Of a DNA stretch of 25,428 nt, positions 9,909 through 23,913 are shown piece after piece. The stretch comes from a virus, in the IMG/VR virus record IMGVR_UViG_3300045999_003007, positions 1-25,428 of that record. One strand, 5' to 3'. The notes beneath the pieces are model-generated. The model had not been told where the DNA came from, did no database searches, and saw only the letters and a program-made list of their open reading frames with translations. A program made the translations under genes and the position numbers. The first letter of the stretch is position 1. Each line of letters starts with the position of its first letter.

Positions 9909-10577
9909 ATGACAAGCGGCCTTTATCAAATAAAGAATACGATCAGCGGTGGCGTCTATATCGGACGCTCTGTTGATGTCGATAATCGCCTAACGCATCA
10001 CCGCAACGAACTGCGGCGAGGTGTTCATCGCAACCGCCGCCTTCAAAACTCTTGGAACAAGTACGGCTTAGAAGCTTTCAAATTTCAATTGCTGTGGGAA
10101 AAAAGTCCTGACGAGTTGTATGAGCTGGAGGGATTTGTTTTAGAGTTTTTGTGGGGCGATGAGCGGCTATACAACCATTACAAACTTTCCTACGGTGGTT
10201 TTGAGCCGGGCAACAAAATTGGTTGTTTTCCTCGCTCGGAAGAAACGAGGGAGCGGATGCGTCAAGCATTTATTGGTCGCGTATTTTCTGACGAACATCG
10301 AAACAAAATCAGAGTCTTAAAAACAGGCCTAAAAGCTTCTGAGGCTACGCGGAAGAAAATGTCGCAAGCCAAGATTGGCAAACCACGGTCAGCAAGCTTT
10401 TCTGAAAAGATGAGTGTGAAAATGACCGGTGAGGCTAACCCGATGTTTGGGAAAATTAGTCCTATGCGTGGTATGAAGTTCCCGACAATTGCCTGCGAGC
10501 ACTGCGGCAAAGAGTCTTCAAAAGGTAACTACCTGCGCTGGCACGGCGCAAATTGCAGGAGCAAAAATCATGAGTGA
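9909..10577 (+). CDS. GIY-YIG homing endonuclease with NUMOD3 repeats and zinc finger
   Basis: A 222-residue free-standing homing endonuclease. The GIY-YIG nuclease domain occupies about residues 1-90 (GLYQI at 4-8, VYIGR at 16-20, basic patch near 27-37, probable catalytic Glu in the DELYELEGF segment). Four NUMOD3 DNA-binding repeats follow at about 110-123, 127-140, 144-157 and 163-175, each with an S-E/D-x-x-R-x-K/R-h pattern ending in h-x-G. The C-terminus has a CxxC...H...C zinc site (C196, C199, H212, C216). It starts 2 bases after the fibre stop and overlaps the next gene by 8 bases. The more A/T-rich codon use differs from the flanking late genes and fits recent entry. It probably cuts allelic genomes lacking the gene. 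Confidence 0.92.
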   Translation: MTSGLYQIKNTISGGVYIGRSVDVDNRLTHHRNELRRGVHRNRRLQNSWNKYGLEAFKFQLLWEKSPDELYELEGFVLEFLWGDERLYNHYKLSYGGFEPGNKIGCFPRSEETRERMRQAFIGRVFSDEHRNKIRVLKTGLKASEATRKKMSQAKIGKPRSASFSEKMSVKMTGEANPMFGKISPMRGMKFPTIACEHCGKESSKGNYLRWHGANCRSKNHE

Positions 10578-14584: not shown

Positions 14585-15007
14585 TCAAAATGGCACATCC
14601 AGCGAATCATCAAACGGATCAGGCTCGATGTTCTTCTGCGCCGGTTTCTGGGCCTCTCTCGGGCGCTCCTGTCCATCGGGCTTGCCGCCGAGCATCTTCA
14701 TCTCGTTGGCGCGAATGGTGTAGGAAACGCGCTCTATGCCGTCCTTGTCGGTGTACTTCTGCGATGTCAGCTTCCCAGAGACATACACAAGCGATCCCTT
14801 CTTCAGGTACTGACCGCACACTTCTGCAAGCCTACCGAACACGGCAATCCTGTGCCATTCGGTCGAATCCCGTTTTTCGCCGCTGGCCTTGTCCACCCAT
14901 TTTTCTGTGGTGGCAATGCTGAAATTGCAGACGGTGTCGCCGCTGGGTAAATACTTTGTGTCAGGATCTTGCCCGAGATGGCCGATGATTTGAATGTGGT
15001 TAAGCAT
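14585..15007 (-). CDS. ssb: Single-stranded DNA-binding protein
   Basis: A 140-residue SSB of bacterial type. The OB fold spans about residues 1-105 (MLNHIQIIGHLGQDPDTKYL, then NFSIATTEKW, STEWHRIAVFGRLAEVCGQY, LKKGSLVYVSGKL). A Gln/Pro/Lys-rich linker leads to the acidic tip DPFDDSLDVPF, the docking peptide for partner proteins. It protects ssDNA in replication and in annealing by the Bet protein encoded upstream in the same leftward unit. AAGGAA precedes ATG 15007, 11 bases after the helicase-methylase stop. Confidence 0.97.
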   Translation of the reverse strand: MLNHIQIIGHLGQDPDTKYLPSGDTVCNFSIATTEKWVDKASGEKRDSTEWHRIAVFGRLAEVCGQYLKKGSLVYVSGKLTSQKYTDKDGIERVSYTIRANEMKMLGGKPDGQERPREAQKPAQKNIEPDPFDDSLDVPF

Positions 15008-15018
15008 TTTGTTTCCTT

Positions 15019-17214
15019 TCAGGCAAATAAGCCTTGTTGTGTAAGCATTGCTTCTTCGATGTTCTGGCAGGCTAGATCAAAGTACTGCGGCTTGAGTTCT
15101 GTCCCGACAAACCTTCTCCCCATCTTGACGGCACAGTATCCTTCGCTCCCGATCCCGGTGAATGGTGAGAAAACAAGATCGCCCGGATTCGTCCAGAGAT
15201 GAATGCACCGCTCGATCACATCAAGCTGCAACGGGCACATGTGCTTTTCGTCGTTCTCATCACGGGCCGGGAGTTTGTTTAAGGTTCGCCCTTGGTCAAT
15301 GTCATCCCAGATCGGGCTAGCGTACTTTTGCCACATTGCGACAGGAAGATCGTCTCCATGCGTTACACGGACTTCGGCATCTCCTGGTTTCCTCATGGTC
15401 ACAACGTAGTCGGGTAGACCCATTCGAGACATGCTTGCGTTTTCACGGATTGTCTTGTGAAGCAGTCCAAGTGCCTTAGTCCTTTGCATTGCCACTACTG
15501 GGTCTTTCCAGATGCACACTTCGGAGTGATAGATAAACCCTACTTCTTGAAACGCCCTGATAAGGTCTCCTCGGAAATCACGCAGCCCGATGAATCCTTG
15601 GCGCATCTTTGTGGTCGGAAGGTTCATGCAATGGAAACTGACATTGCGCCCCGGCTTGATGATCCTGAACAGTTCTGATATCAAGAACCTAAGCTGCGCG
15701 ACAAATTCTGCATCATCCTTGCAGTTCCCCATGTCGTGGTCACTGTTTGAGTAAACAAACAGATCGGCAAACGGAGGGGAAAAGACAGAGTAATCAATGC
15801 TGTTGTCCTCCATGCGCCGAGTCCACTTGACGCAATCCCCAAGATGAACCGTGAACGACTCCCCAGAGAATGTGTCCTCTCGATACTCGTCGGTGATCTT
15901 TTTTTGCCCTGACAATTCATGGTTCATGATGTCTTTCATATGCTCAATCATGTTAGCGCTCATCTCCTGATGTTGTGATTCCTTGCGTTTCAGATTCAAA
16001 AGAATCTGCCCCTCGTTTTCTGCTGTGAAGATGTGAACCTGTACGCTGCGCTTTTGTCCGAACCGGTGGCACCTGCGGACAGCCTGATAGAACTTCTCAA
16101 AAGAATCATCTAGGCCGACAAATGCCATTCTCGCGCAGTGCTGCCAATTCATCCCAAACCCGCAAATTTTTGGTTTGCTGATCAGGACTCTAAGGTCTCC
16201 ACGGCTAAATGCCATCATCTGCTCGGCCTTGTATTCTGCACTGTCTGACCCTTGCACATTGACAGATCCGGGTATCAGGCTTTGCAATAGCTCCGCTTCG
16301 TCGTTCAGATGACACCATATCAGCCACGGCCCAGATGATTCAGTGTTTACGACTTCAGCGAGCGCCTTGCATCTGGCTTCTATGCTTGCCCTTTGTGCTT
16401 GCCTGCGCTCCGTCATGGTTTGCGCTGGACGGCTGAAAAGATCGTTTCCAAGCGATTCCGATTCAATGACATGCTCAATATACTGAGGCTCCGGGAGAAT
16501 GTATCGAGAGCCATCGAACCCGATATCAGACGGGTTTCTAAGTACTACAGCCCATGTGCCCATCCACTCCCAGAATTTAGACGCTCCCCATCCCTTGAGC
16601 CTCCATGTCCCAGTGTCGCCTGTGTCATTTACAAAGTAAGTTGCAAGCATTTCTGTCCGTGACATCACCCCGAGGAATTCGCATTGATTCCCAAGTTCCT
16701 CAAAGTCATTTGGGCTTGGTGTGGCCGTGCAACTGAGCCTGTAAGGTATACCCTGCGCCGCGCTTATGATCCTTGTGCGCGTTTTGCCGTCATGTGCCTT
16801 GAGTATGCTGGATTCATCAAGCACGATCCCGTGCAGCGAATCAAAGTCAATTGAATCCATGCGCTCATAGTTGGTGATCCATACCCCAGATGAATCCGGC
16901 GACCCTCCATGCGGGACTCGCTTTACCTCGACGCCAAAGGTTTTTCCTTGGTCGATAGTCTGCTCGGAGACCGCCAAAGGAGCAAGTATCAAAACAGGCC
17001 CCTTCGCATGAGATGCCACTTCATCTGCCCATGACAATTGCATAAGGGTTTTTCCGAGTCCGGTATCAGCGAAAATGGCTGCTCTGCCACGGCGCACAGC
17101 CCAAGAAACAATCGCATGTTGGAAATCAAAAAGATTGGGATTGAGGTCTCCTGGCTTGTGACCAGTGGCTACCTCATGCCGTCTTTTGGAAGCAACAAAC
17201 TGATCGTAGTCCAT
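15019..17214 (-). CDS. SNF2-type helicase fused to a DNA methyltransferase
   Basis: A 731-residue two-part protein. The start MDYDQF at 17214 follows AAGGA and the MazG-like gene's stop; the frame extends upstream but without a better site. Residues about 28-440 are a superfamily 2 (SNF2-like) ATPase: Walker A ADTGLGKT (49-56), motif II LDESS (132-136, in place of DEAH), motif III TATPSP (163-168) and motif VI QAVRRCHRFGQKR (377-389). Residues about 445-731 are an amino-methyltransferase: SPPF (479-482, catalytic motif IV) precedes SPFTGIGS (683-690, AdoMet motif I) and RRFVGTELKPQYFDLA, the beta-class order of N4-cytosine/N6-adenine enzymes. It probably modifies phage DNA while moving along it. 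No nuclease domain is visible. Confidence 0.93.
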   Translation of the reverse strand: MDYDQFVASKRRHEVATGHKPGDLNPNLFDFQHAIVSWAVRRGRAAIFADTGLGKTLMQLSWADEVASHAKGPVLILAPLAVSEQTIDQGKTFGVEVKRVPHGGSPDSSGVWITNYERMDSIDFDSLHGIVLDESSILKAHDGKTRTRIISAAQGIPYRLSCTATPSPNDFEELGNQCEFLGVMSRTEMLATYFVNDTGDTGTWRLKGWGASKFWEWMGTWAVVLRNPSDIGFDGSRYILPEPQYIEHVIESESLGNDLFSRPAQTMTERRQAQRASIEARCKALAEVVNTESSGPWLIWCHLNDEAELLQSLIPGSVNVQGSDSAEYKAEQMMAFSRGDLRVLISKPKICGFGMNWQHCARMAFVGLDDSFEKFYQAVRRCHRFGQKRSVQVHIFTAENEGQILLNLKRKESQHQEMSANMIEHMKDIMNHELSGQKKITDEYREDTFSGESFTVHLGDCVKWTRRMEDNSIDYSVFSPPFADLFVYSNSDHDMGNCKDDAEFVAQLRFLISELFRIIKPGRNVSFHCMNLPTTKMRQGFIGLRDFRGDLIRAFQEVGFIYHSEVCIWKDPVVAMQRTKALGLLHKTIRENASMSRMGLPDYVVTMRKPGDAEVRVTHGDDLPVAMWQKYASPIWDDIDQGRTLNKLPARDENDEKHMCPLQLDVIERCIHLWTNPGDLVFSPFTGIGSEGYCAVKMGRRFVGTELKPQYFDLACQNIEEAMLTQQGLFA

Positions 17215-17215
17215 G

Positions 17216-17533
17216 TCATTCCTTGATAAATGCGCCCGACGGCGACATCTTGCCCTTGCGATCCTTGATCTCGTTGTAAGCAGATTCAAGGCAGTCAACG
17301 ATTCCGATTTTTCTGGTGGCGCAGTAGTTGATCAGGCACACCAACACATCCCCGACCGCATCCTGAATCGCCGCTTCGTCATTCTTGATCTCGGCATCCG
17401 CGAGTTCGCCCATCTCGCTCACGGCCTTGAGCAGCTGAGTGTAAGCCCTTGGGTTATCAAATATCCCGCGCTCCTTGGCCCATGCGATCACCAAGAATTC
17501 AAGCTCCTCGAAACACATAACTGGCTTGGTCAT
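17216..17533 (-). CDS. MazG-like nucleotide pyrophosphohydrolase
   Basis: A 105-residue all-helical protein. The ATG at 17533 overlaps the preceding stop as ATGA with AAAGGA upstream; longer in-frame starts lie inside that gene. The metal-binding helices of the MazG/DUF550 group are visible: SEMGELADAEIK at about 39-50 (E-x-x-E) and IQDAVGDVLVCLINY at about 56-70, where the usual E-x-x-D is D-A-V-G-D as in other phage members. Such enzymes hydrolyse NTPs or dNTPs to the monophosphate. In a phage this may adjust nucleotide pools or the host alarm response. It ends 1 base before the helicase-methylase start. Confidence 0.85.
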   Translation of the reverse strand: MTKPVMCFEELEFLVIAWAKERGIFDNPRAYTQLLKAVSEMGELADAEIKNDEAAIQDAVGDVLVCLINYCATRKIGIVDCLESAYNEIKDRKGKMSPSGAFIKE

Positions 17534-17730
17534 TTTTTTCCTTTCAGTGTGTAGGCAGCAATCATCTTGCCCGTTTTGGTTCTGGTCATATTGGTTTCGA
17601 TCTGTAGGCCCATGTCCCGGAGTTCGCTGACGCGAGCTGCGAGTCTGAGGCATCCGCACCCTTTGAGCGCATCAAGGGCTGTGATCGGTCGTTTCTTCAT
17701 CGCAGACATGATCCATTCGTTCTGGGTCAT
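17530..17730 (-). CDS. Small helix-turn-helix protein (HTH_39-like)
   Basis: A 66-residue protein starting at ATG 17730 with an ATGA overlap and GAGAGGA upstream. The pattern NEWIMSAMKKRPITALDALK, then GCLRLAARVSELRDMG and a basic beta-wing ending AAYTLKGKK, is that of the short winged-helix HTH_39 family common in phages. Sitting between the exonuclease and MazG genes, it may bind DNA as a regulator or accessory factor. The target is unknown. Confidence 0.82.
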   Translation of the reverse strand: MTQNEWIMSAMKKRPITALDALKGCGCLRLAARVSELRDMGLQIETNMTRTKTGKMIAAYTLKGKK

Positions 17731-18341
17731 TTCATCCTCTCCTCGATCTTGGATTGCATCTTTGTAACGGTCTCAAGGAATGCGGATACCTCCGTCTCGA
17801 TCTGCTTGATCAGCTTGTCATCCCGACTGACCCTGACCACAAACATCTGGATCTTGCTCGGGAGTCGAGGGTCGAACGAAACGAAATCGCACCAAGATCG
17901 CTCGGTGCAGGCCATCTGGAATTGCATCTGCCTCATGTACTCCGGTGGCGCAATCCCTGCGATAAGGTATTCCAGGTGCGTCCTCGATTCTGGGCACTTG
18001 ATCTCGATCAGACCGTCATCGCCTACCAGACCGTCCGGGCTGGCCCCGCACATCGGGATAAAGGGGTGGTTGATGAACCCGACCTGCTGGACAATCACGC
18101 AGTTCTCGGCCTCATACGATGACCTTGCGAACGGCTCCGTCTCAGTCCCCCACTTCATTGAGGCTGTAGTGAACATCTCGGTAGGTCTGCCGGTTAGCCT
18201 TTCGGTGATCAGTTGCACCCGATAATTCGCACGGCTGGCCGGTTCATCCCCGGTTTTTAGCTTCGCCATGACATCGTTAATCCTCGATGCCGTGACCCTG
18301 CCTAGTCTGGCTTCATGCCATTCAGTTGACCCTTGCTCCAT
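17727..18341 (-). CDS. YqaJ-type phage recombination exonuclease
   Basis: A 204-residue nuclease equivalent to lambda Exo. The ATG at 18341 is chosen for AGGAAGG just upstream; the frame extends 16 codons further without support. YqaJ motifs are present: QGSTEWHEARLGRVTASR (3-20), WGTETEPFARSSYE (64-77), SPDGLVGDDG (101-110, with D103), the catalytic IEIKCP (112-117, E113/K115) and Y-M-R-Q-M-Q-F-Q-M (135-143). It should degrade one strand from DNA ends and hand the ssDNA to the Bet annealing protein encoded just upstream. The stop overlaps the HTH gene start. Confidence 0.95.
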   Translation of the reverse strand: MEQGSTEWHEARLGRVTASRINDVMAKLKTGDEPASRANYRVQLITERLTGRPTEMFTTASMKWGTETEPFARSSYEAENCVIVQQVGFINHPFIPMCGASPDGLVGDDGLIEIKCPESRTHLEYLIAGIAPPEYMRQMQFQMACTERSWCDFVSFDPRLPSKIQMFVVRVSRDDKLIKQIETEVSAFLETVTKMQSKIEERMK

Positions 18342-18522
18342 TTTTGTCCCTTCCTGTGATTTGATCAATCGCTGCGCCGTAGCCCTCAACGAAACCGATC
18401 CTGAACACCGTCAGGACGATCGGTATCAGGTTCTCTGCCAACTCCCTCACCCGCTCGTCCTTGATGTCCGGGATTGTCATGCGGAACCGCTCGACGAACT
18501 CCTGTTCTTTCGGCGTCATCAT
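18322..18522 (-). CDS. Hypothetical 66-residue protein between bet and exonuclease genes
   Basis: It starts at ATG 18522, overlapping the bet stop (ATGA) with GGAGG seven bases upstream, and overlaps the exonuclease start by 20 bases. It is a helical, charged protein (MTPKEQEFVERFRM, DERVRELAENLIPIVLTVFR, GFVEGYGAAIDQI). No domain is recognised. Being wedged between the two recombinase genes suggests an accessory part in recombination, an inference from position only. Confidence 0.68.
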   Translation of the reverse strand: MMTPKEQEFVERFRMTIPDIKDERVRELAENLIPIVLTVFRIGFVEGYGAAIDQITGRDKNGARVN

Positions 18523-19325
18523 GTTCCAGCCTCCACGACCTGAGATGCAACCTTCTTCAGTTTCGCTCCGTGCGCGATCCAGAAATGCTTCTTCTCGGGG
18601 CTGTTCGGAATTTCCTTGAACGCCTTTTCTAGATGCTCCTGCCCCATCTCTGCGGCCATCTGAAGCATGGCGAAATGCTCGTTGTAGAACGCATCCGATT
18701 CCTCGGTGGCCGAGTTCTGGACAACAGACTCAGGGTTGCGCGAGTTGGTGAAATCCTCGATACCCTTGCCTTCCATCTCTTCCGCAGTCGGCTGCGATCC
18801 GATCTCAGGGAATGCCATACGCAGGGCTTGCGCTTGGGCACACTTGGCAAGTTGGCCATACGGACGTTTTGCCCACATCGCGTTCGGCGCAATGCTTTTG
18901 TCCTTGCCGCCCTTGACCGCATAATTCTCTTTCCAGCGCTCGACCGCTGTGAATTCGGCAATGAACCCATCCGCGATCTTCCGCTTGGCCGTGACCTTGC
19001 ACCATGCAGGATATGTGATCGAGACCCCGCCAATCGACTCGCTGACATCTGGGCCGAACTCCGGCTCGGTGATCCCGGCATACTCGCCAGACCTTGCCGC
19101 CTGAACGCGATACATCCCGATTCCGGGCATCACGACATCGCGCATTGCACCGGCCCTTGAGTCCCACATGGGGACGATATGCACGGGCTTCTGCATCGGG
19201 TCAAGTCCTGCTGCCTTGCAATACCCCAAGACCATCCTGATCGACTCAATAGAGCCACCTGGATACAGGCTAGACTGCAATACGGCCAGCAGCTTTGCCT
19301 CGTCAACTACCGCAACTTCGTTCAT
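18519..19325 (-). CDS. bet: Bet-type single-strand annealing recombinase (RecT/Bet superfamily)
   Basis: A 268-residue annealing protein. The N-terminal part is characteristic of phage Bet: LYPGGSIESIRMVLGYCKAA (20-39), GLDPMQKPVHIVPMWD (40-55), VVMPGIGMYRVQAARSGEYA (64-83). Next come a core with WCKVTAKRKI and AVERWKENY, and MWAKRPYGQLAKCAQAQAL. The C-terminal ~80 residues are acidic and variable. It pairs complementary ssDNA made by the YqaJ exonuclease two genes downstream; SSB is in the same unit. AGGAGG precedes ATG 19325, and it is the first gene leftward of the divergent control region. Confidence 0.95.
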   Translation of the reverse strand: MNEVAVVDEAKLLAVLQSSLYPGGSIESIRMVLGYCKAAGLDPMQKPVHIVPMWDSRAGAMRDVVMPGIGMYRVQAARSGEYAGITEPEFGPDVSESIGGVSITYPAWCKVTAKRKIADGFIAEFTAVERWKENYAVKGGKDKSIAPNAMWAKRPYGQLAKCAQAQALRMAFPEIGSQPTAEEMEGKGIEDFTNSRNPESVVQNSATEESDAFYNEHFAMLQMAAEMGQEHLEKAFKEIPNSPEKKHFWIAHGAKLKKVASQVVEAGT

Positions 19326-22713: not shown

Positions 22714-23000
22714 TTTTTGCTCACTTTCAAGATTTCGTTTTCGATCATGTGTTGCATCGTCTTTATGTACGCCTGATCCCACATCTCGCGCCGCTCGTCT
22801 CGGGTCATTGTCGATCCCTGATCCAGCGCCGAATGGCAACGGTAGCACAACGCGGACACCAGGGCATCGGACACCTTGATGCCCATACCTTTACCCTGGT
22901 TCCGGTGCGCGGCCACCACAGTGCCATCCTGAGTCCCACAATGGGCGCATGGACACTGCCGGACAGCCTCAAGCAGCTTCTTTGACCGAAAGATAGGCAT
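22710..23000 (-). CDS. YbcO/DUF1364-like putative nuclease
   Basis: A 96-residue protein. The ATG at 23000 is preceded by AAGGA; the frame continues upstream into the methyltransferase gene. It shows C-x-C-x-x-C (CPCAHC, 16-21), an AH pair (31-32) within VVAAHRNQGKGMG, and CYRCHSALDQ (52-61). That arrangement matches the YbcO/DUF1364 family of HNH-like phage proteins that usually lie next to rusA or ninG. It overlaps the methyltransferase end by 32 bases and rusA by 4 bases (TTGA). A structure-specific nuclease role is likely. Confidence 0.8.
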   Translation of the reverse strand: MPIFRSKKLLEAVRQCPCAHCGTQDGTVVAAHRNQGKGMGIKVSDALVSALCYRCHSALDQGSTMTRDERREMWDQAYIKTMQHMIENEILKVSKN

Positions 23001-23913
23001 TGATCCTTGCTCCAATCCACCGCACAACCGGCACCGCCCAGCTGTTGCCGAGCGCCTTGTACCTCGGGCCTTCTGGGCACTGATCGGGGGGCTTGCCGCG
23101 CCAAGGGATTGCTGTGTACACGCGAGGGAATCCCTGCAAACATTCAGCCTCGTCCGGGGTCAATCTTCGCCATGCGTCACCGTGTTGGATACAGACGAAT
23201 CCATCTGCACGACTGTATTCATGCGCTGTAGTTTGAAGGCATGGATGCGTTGTCCCCTGCTGATACGGGTCTGAATCCCGGCGCACGCCGTCGAACTCAA
23301 AAAGAACCTTGGCGGGATCGAACCCGTCTCGAGCACTTGCGACAACGAACACACGGCGGCGTCGTTGGGCCAGGCCGAAATATTGGGCGTCGAGGACTCG
23401 CCACGCGACTGCTCTTTCGGGGCCAAACACACAACCAGCGTCCGTCCATTTGTCCCCTGGCGGGATGATCGGATCATCTTCGCCGGCAAGTCCTGCAAGA
23501 AAGCACCCGAAGGCGTTGTCCTTTGTGCTGAGAACTCCTGGCACGTTCTCCCAGAAGATGATGGCGGGCTGATCGCCTCGCTCGCGTCGAACAGTGTCAA
23601 TTGCATTGGCGATCTCGCAGAAGGTCAGGGAAAGATTGCCGCGAGCATCGTCAAGCGACTTACGCAACCCGGCTACGGAAAAAGCTTGGCATGGCGTGCC
23701 ACCGCAAAACACGTCCGGCGCTTCGACCTCACCAGACAAAATGCGCTCCGGCAGTTTGGCCATATCGCCAAGGTTCGGCACATCTGGATAGTGGTGTTTC
23801 AGCACCGCAGAAGGAAACGGTTCGATCTCCGACAGCCATGCTGCTCTCCATCCGAGTGGATGCCACGCCACGCTTGCGGCCTCGATTCCGCTGCATACTG
23901 ATCCGAATTTCAT
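22969..23913 (-). CDS. C5-cytosine DNA methyltransferase (orphan)
   Basis: A 314-residue Dcm-type enzyme with GGAG ahead of ATG 23913. Conserved motifs are in order: I (KFGSVCSGIEAASVAW, 2-17), IV (GGTPCQAFSVAG, 71-82, catalytic C75), VI (WENVPGVLS, 121-129), VIII (LAQRRRRVFVV, 181-191), IX (LTPDEAECLQGFPR, 251-264) and X (ALGNSWAVPVV, 287-297). The target-recognition part between VIII and IX is short, which suggests a short recognition sequence. No partner restriction enzyme is seen, so it probably protects phage DNA from host restriction. The end overlaps the YbcO-like gene by 32 bases. Confidence 0.96.
   Translation of the reverse strand: MKFGSVCSGIEAASVAWHPLGWRAAWLSEIEPFPSAVLKHHYPDVPNLGDMAKLPERILSGEVEAPDVFCGGTPCQAFSVAGLRKSLDDARGNLSLTFCEIANAIDTVRRERGDQPAIIFWENVPGVLSTKDNAFGCFLAGLAGEDDPIIPPGDKWTDAGCVFGPERAVAWRVLDAQYFGLAQRRRRVFVVASARDGFDPAKVLFEFDGVRRDSDPYQQGTTHPCLQTTAHEYSRADGFVCIQHGDAWRRLTPDEAECLQGFPRVYTAIPWRGKPPDQCPEGPRYKALGNSWAVPVVRWIGARINAYLSVKEAA

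Follow-up and report, generated by a model that had tools for sequence, protein, structure and literature searches.

It might be asked what a phage gains from a protein that joins a helicase-like motor to a DNA methyltransferase in one chain and carries no nuclease. The question is raised by a gene on the viral contig IMGVR_UViG_3300045999_003007, the whole of which (25,428 bases) was analysed here and is referred to as the window. The plus strand of the window carries tail genes, including those for the major tail protein and the tape measure, and the minus strand carries the early genes. The helicase-methyltransferase gene is one of the latter and occupies 15019..17214 on the minus strand, as defined by its open reading frame and translation (731 aa, from the ATG at 17214 to the stop codon at 15019) and by Pfam and PHROG matches. 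The original prediction had given exactly these coordinates, the strand being absent from it. According to the alignment the ATG at 17214 is the start shared with the relatives. A TTG start at 17298, which would give a reading of 759 aa, was rejected as unsupported; the extension overlaps the upstream gene.

The neighbourhood is that of a recombination operon with ssb alongside, as had been predicted. All of the following genes are on the minus strand. Directly upstream lies a gene for a MazG-like pyrophosphohydrolase (17216..17659; PHROG 1992/715, PF03819), whose stop codon is 1 base ahead of the helicase-methyltransferase ATG, and beyond it are genes for a lambda-type exonuclease (17727..18389; PHROG 149, TIGR03033) and a Bet single-strand annealing protein (18519..19325; PHROG 2449, TIGR01913). 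The next gene downstream, after a gap of 11 bases from the stop codon, encodes a single-stranded DNA-binding protein (ssb, 14585..15007; PHROG 44, TIGR00621). RusA and a DnaB-like helicase are also encoded further along the window. The early region contains a second DNA methyltransferase gene, of the C5-cytosine type (22969-23913, minus strand), and C5 methyltransferases were seen near several relatives too (L087, L092). A homing-endonuclease-like gene adjoins the tail genes (9909-10577, plus strand).

The protein consists of two well-defined halves. Residues 1-434 (15913..17214) form a SNF2-type two-lobe ATPase according to an AlphaFold2 model (built on 63 aligned sequences, mean pLDDT 85.3), in which residues 21-431 match the INO80 ATPase with Z 30.9 and rmsd 3.3. 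Its motifs are GLGKT (motif I or Walker A, residues 52-56, 17047..17061; G52, G54 and K55 invariant in the 63 relatives), DESS (motif II, residues 133-136, 16807..16818), TATPSPND (motif III, residues 163-170) and QAVRRCHRFGQ (motif VI, residues 377-387, 16054..16086; Q377, R381, R384, G386 and Q387 invariant). The second half, residues 454-726 (15037..15855), is a DNA methyltransferase domain (PF01555, E 1.4e-14). Its catalytic motif IV, SPPF (residues 479-482, 15769..15780), is invariant in the 63 relatives, and its AdoMet motif I, FSPFTGIGSEG (residues 682-692, 15139..15171), has G687 and S690 invariant. Because SPPF precedes the AdoMet motif, which is the beta order, the methyltransferase belongs to the beta class. 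The Pfam models SNF2-rel_dom, Helicase_C and N6_N4_Mtase all scored above their curated cut-offs. The closest solved methyltransferase is the beta-class TTHA0409 (PDB 2zie/2zif/2zig), a chain without helicase whose function is putative; residues 453-726 of the model match it with 25% identity and rmsd 2.2-2.3 (VIA-align Z 26.7 to 2zif/2zie). The original prediction of SF2 motifs fused to a beta-class N4/N6 methyltransferase, with SPPF ahead of the AdoMet motif, is thus borne out, and residues 445-731, whose failure to model as a methyltransferase would have spoken against it, do adopt that fold.

Two details of these motifs deserve comment. Motif II had been read correctly as DESS rather than DEAH, but the hint that this is an oddity did not hold. 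DESS is present in all 63 diverse fused relatives, and the whole block D133-E-S-S136 with the isoleucine that follows is constant in the 63 aligned members. A degenerate or defective motif is ruled out by this invariance, and judged from the aligned sequences DESS is a hallmark of the helicase-methyltransferase family. The SPPF motif, as is known for this class of enzymes, favours N4-cytosine and leaves N6-adenine possible. The motif is therefore indecisive, and cytosine N4 is the more likely of the two predicted targets of methylation.

The original prediction also implied that this architecture is rare, which is not the case. A search for it, as that prediction had proposed, showed that 372 of 50,697 phage records match the window protein in tblastn, 304 of them at a coverage of at least 80%, with the two halves either fused or in two adjacent genes. 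Eight plasmid records matched at the same coverage (at least 80%), and the family also occurs on contigs of Pseudomonadota, Bacteroidota, Bacillota, Ktedonobacteria and others, plus methanogen contigs. The protein falls into PHROG 16, a phage 'DNA helicase' family (profile E 1.1e-72, residues 44-750 of the 759-aa reading). In that family a SNF2 helicase precedes an N4/N6 methyltransferase, either within a single chain or in neighbouring co-directional genes, and this feature was found in the 63-member alignment. Genes of mycobacteriophages and arthrobacter phages annotated as 'DNA helicase/methylase' belong to the same family. In a long variant of 839-876 aa, carried by mycobacteriophage Cornie among others, motif II reads DEA[SA] and SPPF is replaced by SIPF. 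In four loci of this variant (L086:3989-6508, L087:35-2665, L091:3923-6448 and L092:3992-6601) SIPF was accompanied by an insert of ~80-100 residues before the AdoMet motif. To judge from these changes, the activity or target of the long variant may differ from that of the SPPF forms.

In many phages each half has a gene of its own; the two genes adjoin and carry the annotations 'DNA helicase' and 'DNA methylase'. The separate helicases end in Y-x-P...[LIVM]-P-x-[WF], and [LIVM]Px[WF] was present in 48 of 56 distinct C-termini. No LPx[WF]-type motif was found in any of 286 distinct linkers of fused proteins. The LPx[WF] end of the helicase probably docks on the partner methyltransferase, a role that would be needless after fusion.

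Coupling of SNF2 ATPases to methyltransferases in phages has been described by Iyer and colleagues as a 'DNA methylase-helicase dyad' (PMC5512222). The helicase-methyltransferase architecture itself is therefore known and the family is annotated; as far as we could find it is uncharacterised, since a search of the accessible literature yielded no experimental characterisation of PHROG 16 helicase-methyltransferases. The likeness to the Dar proteins of phage P1 seen in the original prediction is real in so far as DarB also links a SWI2/SNF2 ATPase to a phage DNA methyltransferase and has been proposed to act in anti-restriction. Kinship with DarB, however, fails on class, domain order and the LPD36 domain. 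DarB has a gamma-class methyltransferase with NPP(Y/F), EcoKI/TaqI-like and placed before the helicase, together with LPD36 (PMC5512222), whereas the window protein is beta-class, with SPPF and motif IV before motif I, and has its helicase (1-434) ahead of the methyltransferase (454-726) with no room for LPD36. Moreover, DarB is a virion protein while the window gene lies in an early-type operon.

Membership of the type III or type ISP enzymes, which had also been considered, is likewise not supported. Like the window protein, these systems (LlaGI and LlaBIII among the type ISP) combine a motor with a methyltransferase, and type III Mod is also beta-class. Type ISP enzymes, on the other hand, are gamma-class with a nuclease, whereas the window protein is a beta-class SPPF enzyme whose chain begins directly in the helicase, with no N-terminal nuclease domain. 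In contrast to type III systems there is no separate Res, the neighbours being the MazG-like, ssb, exonuclease and Bet genes. The window protein differs from both types in having a SNF2 motor and a recognition region that is conserved rather than diversified. As originally noted there is no nuclease in the chain: none of the nuclease families was matched by Pfam, profile searches or PADLOC, and for this reason the helicase-methyltransferase is not a restriction enzyme. The DISARM genes DrmA, DrmB and DrmC were absent among the neighbours tested, and a DrmD model matched with E 0.001, far below the cut-off.

A clue to the role of the protein may lie at its extreme C-terminus. The last residues include QQGLF (residues 726-730, 15025..15039, minus strand), which resembles the motif by which proteins bind the bacterial beta-clamp, for which the consensus pentapeptide QL(S/D)LF has been published (PMC9690074). 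The tail lies past the last helix of the methyltransferase, and the pLDDT falls there, averaging 75 over residues 721-730 and reaching 50 at residue 731. Both QQGLF and the MPSLFD of the long variant lack parts of the canonical motif. In the near family (~79 loci, 78-90% identical) nearly all tails read Q-x-[GDS]-L-F, their distance from the helix varying, and distant members end in QLTLF, QISLF, QIDLF, QLSLF, QLSLL or MPSLFD, so that the exact published consensus (QLSLF) occurs in some relatives. In the split systems the tail remains on the methyltransferase.

The statistical weight of the tail was assessed with 142 members, made non-redundant by their methyltransferase core, in comparison with shuffled tails. 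[LIM]F was found in 87 of 107 short-variant tails (shuffled mean 15.1) and in all 34 long-variant tails (6.9); Q..[LIM][FLV] was found in 54 of 107 short-variant tails as against 3.1 after shuffling, and in 1 of 34 of the long variant. About one fifth of the short-variant tails are without [LIM]F. As a control, the remaining open frames of these loci were scored at their C-termini, where [LIM]F occurred in 85 of 1146 cases, no more than in shuffled sequences. Because all six leucine codons and both phenylalanine codons occur in the tail, selection acts on the protein. In five clostridial contigs (L313, L318, L322, L323 and L326) a zinc-ribbon-like ending, CxCPxCG...CPxCG, was seen in place of the LF tail.

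A further control came from SPPY methyltransferases that stand alone in phages, two families of which were scored for [LIM]F in the last 20 residues. The first group had it in 12 of 66 members (12.1 after shuffling) and the second in 24 of 59 (6.3 after shuffling); by the same measure the helicase-linked family had it in 92 of 116 and 42 of 44. An LF tail that is simply part of the methyltransferase fold is ruled out by its absence in one standalone group and its position beyond the last helix, and a tail unique to helicase-linked enzymes is ruled out by its partial presence in the second group. From these control groups it follows that neither the fold nor the helicase requires the tail, which several phage methyltransferases seem to have acquired as an addition. 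Individual standalone SPPY enzymes (L513, L509, L541 and L421:796-1812) end in QIDMF, QLVMF, NLDLF and QAELF. Tethering to the clamp may thus be a wider habit among phage orphan methyltransferases, as far as such endings can tell. In the openly searchable literature no earlier account was found of a phage or bacterial DNA methyltransferase that binds the clamp.

Clamp genes were also found near some of these systems. Since clustering of gene neighbours was contaminated by spurious antisense open reading frames, only genes confirmed by Pfam or PHROG were used. One such gene is p081 of Alteromonas phage XX1924 (L088:5038-6051), which bears the annotation 'hypothetical protein'; it encodes a DnaN-like protein with all three Pfam clamp domains and sits between the methyltransferase and helicase genes. 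DnaN starts 11 bases downstream of the fused gene in another locus (L284), overlaps the end of the fused gene in a third (L111) and lies ~1.6 kb upstream in a fourth (L331). Clamp genes are rare in phages, two DnaN queries having matched 129 and 102 of 50,697 records, and a directly adjoining clamp gene was present in only 3 of several hundred loci. These adjacent genes support a link with the clamp without proving it, the cases being few and the counts coming from different collections.

Archaea use PCNA instead of DnaN, and its partners carry PIP boxes of the QxxLxx[FW] type. The three archaeal-associated tails found here read QVGLDAWI, QASLLSF and QASLFTF, two of them near-identical in the motif, while, of all 50 QxxL tails, only 8 have an aromatic residue at the PIP position. 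More archaeal copies were sought in 393 genomes of the phylum, where the gene was carried only by the two already found. A shift of the tail towards a PCNA-type PIP box in archaeal hosts is no more than a lead from three tails.

In all 62 of 62 relatives conservation was higher in the methyltransferase half than in the helicase (61% as against 49%). Within the methyltransferase half, residues 561-611 (15382..15534, minus strand) form the most conserved block, with a column identity of 0.71-0.88 in blocks of 20 residues. At the position of this block beta-class enzymes usually carry their target-recognition region, and restriction-linked enzymes usually diversify in that region. In the alignment of the relatives no hypervariable recognition region was found in the methyltransferase half. 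Since conservation peaks in the block at the usual site of the recognition region, a single target, the same or nearly the same, is suggested for the whole family.

Taking these observations together, we propose that the protein is a clamp-tethered, ATP-assisted modification enzyme that would act on newly replicated phage DNA; we give this reading a probability of about one half. The free tail QQGLF would hook the DnaN clamp of the host and so bring the enzyme to the fresh duplex behind the fork. There the SNF2 motor, of which the fold is modelled, would travel along the duplex or remodel it at the expense of ATP and thereby present the target base. The beta-class SPPF domain would then methylate an exocyclic amine, rather of cytosine (N4) than of adenine (N6), in a target that would be identical or nearly so throughout the family. 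The resulting mark might shield progeny DNA from host restriction or label the DNA as that of the phage; for a benefit in anti-restriction the argument is drawn from what is generally known of phages. The two halves would work as one machine, and where they are encoded by separate genes LPx[WF] probably stands in for the covalent link. That a translocating methyltransferase is tied to replication had already been suggested in the original prediction and is likely, since the tail, the DnaN neighbours of some relatives and the ssb and recombination context all point there.

Both elements of this proposal have counterparts in eukaryotes. The best analogue of ATP-assisted methylation is fungal DNMT5, likewise a single chain of SNF2 ATPase and DNA methyltransferase, which performs ATP-dependent maintenance and, according to its description, does not depend on the replication machinery (PMC13297926). 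It differs from the window protein in its C5-cytosine chemistry and its unrelated class of methyltransferase. A clamp-coupled methyltransferase is known in DNMT1, which has a PCNA-binding motif (PMC9690074); the window protein would share with it a clamp-motif link to newly replicated DNA. DNMT1, however, is a eukaryotic C5 enzyme without SNF2 motor and is unrelated to the methyltransferase half of the window protein. More tentatively, and as a possibility to which we give somewhat less than even odds, one replication-coupled machine might be common to phages from many phyla of bacteria and to some viruses of archaea, a machine in which a DNMT5-like motor-methyltransferase is combined with a DNMT1-like clamp tether (PIP-like in archaea) and leaves one conserved mark on nascent DNA.

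Other explanations have to be weighed against a clamp tether. The enzyme might be a stand-alone anti-restriction protein that uses its SNF2 motor to scan phage DNA and has no link to the clamp, like the DarB-type dyad, the tail serving some other end. The methylase-helicase dyad has indeed been proposed to act in anti-restriction (PMC5512222), orphan methyltransferases are common in phages and the window itself encodes a second one of the C5 type. But the LF tail, its likeness to the clamp motif and the neighbouring clamp genes would be left unexplained, and the diversification of specificity expected from an arms race was not seen; we regard this explanation as rather doubtful. The tail could also dock on the helicase half of the same protein or on another partner, for example SSB, given that motifs so short are easily confused, that ssb is adjacent in the window and that SSB genes were repeatedly found in the neighbourhood of relatives (31 loci, cluster 11). 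Such docking is unlikely in view of the retention of the tail where the halves are separate genes, its recurrence in standalone phage methyltransferases without fused helicase and a consensus which is that of clamp partners.

The remaining alternatives assign the methyltransferase a lesser or a different part. A clamp-recruited helicase for fork remodelling or recombination, with a regulatory or dispensable methyltransferase, would suit the recombination operon and the close likeness to SNF2 remodellers, yet it is precisely the methyltransferase that is the better conserved half in every relative compared, with an invariant catalytic SPPF, which makes this explanation very unlikely. Least probable, with hardly any chance of being right, is that the protein is half of a restriction-modification or exclusion system with a nuclease encoded elsewhere. 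Some mycobacteriophages do have an HNH gene immediately upstream, but it is not beside most of the relatives examined, no HNH gene adjoins the gene in the window, and PADLOC matched generic methyltransferases and weak helicase models only.

New, as far as we could find, are the clamp-binding-like tail, the docking motif restricted to split systems and the conserved methyltransferase half without a hypervariable recognition region; neither the tail nor the docking motif was described in the papers that could be searched. If the tail does bind the clamp, it gives a concrete reason for the link of the methyltransferase to replication, and prokaryotic viruses would use the clamp-coupled methylation known from eukaryotic DNMT1. 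A gene family present in hundreds of sequenced phages as 'helicase/methylase, function unknown' would become testable at two residues, L729 and F730, with DnaN as the candidate partner. The coexistence of split and fused forms is, in addition, a natural test of the communication between motor and methyltransferase.

Some members of the family showed irregular gene structures. On two mycobacteriophage contigs (L182 4001-7510 and L189 4001-7498) the helicase-methyltransferase is interrupted by an intein-like in-frame insertion of ~330 residues, with the conserved cysteine of the HxCPLQ motif as insertion point. In Flavobacterium phage snusmum6-1 (L085 3959-7024) an annotated endonuclease gene, possibly a homing insertion, separates the helicase gene from the methyltransferase gene of a split system. 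In EBPR podovirus 1 (L082 1241-3483) the methyltransferase gp50 seems to be annotated too short, an antisense gene having been called over its 5' part, and the frame of gp50 is open from the helicase stop codon onward.
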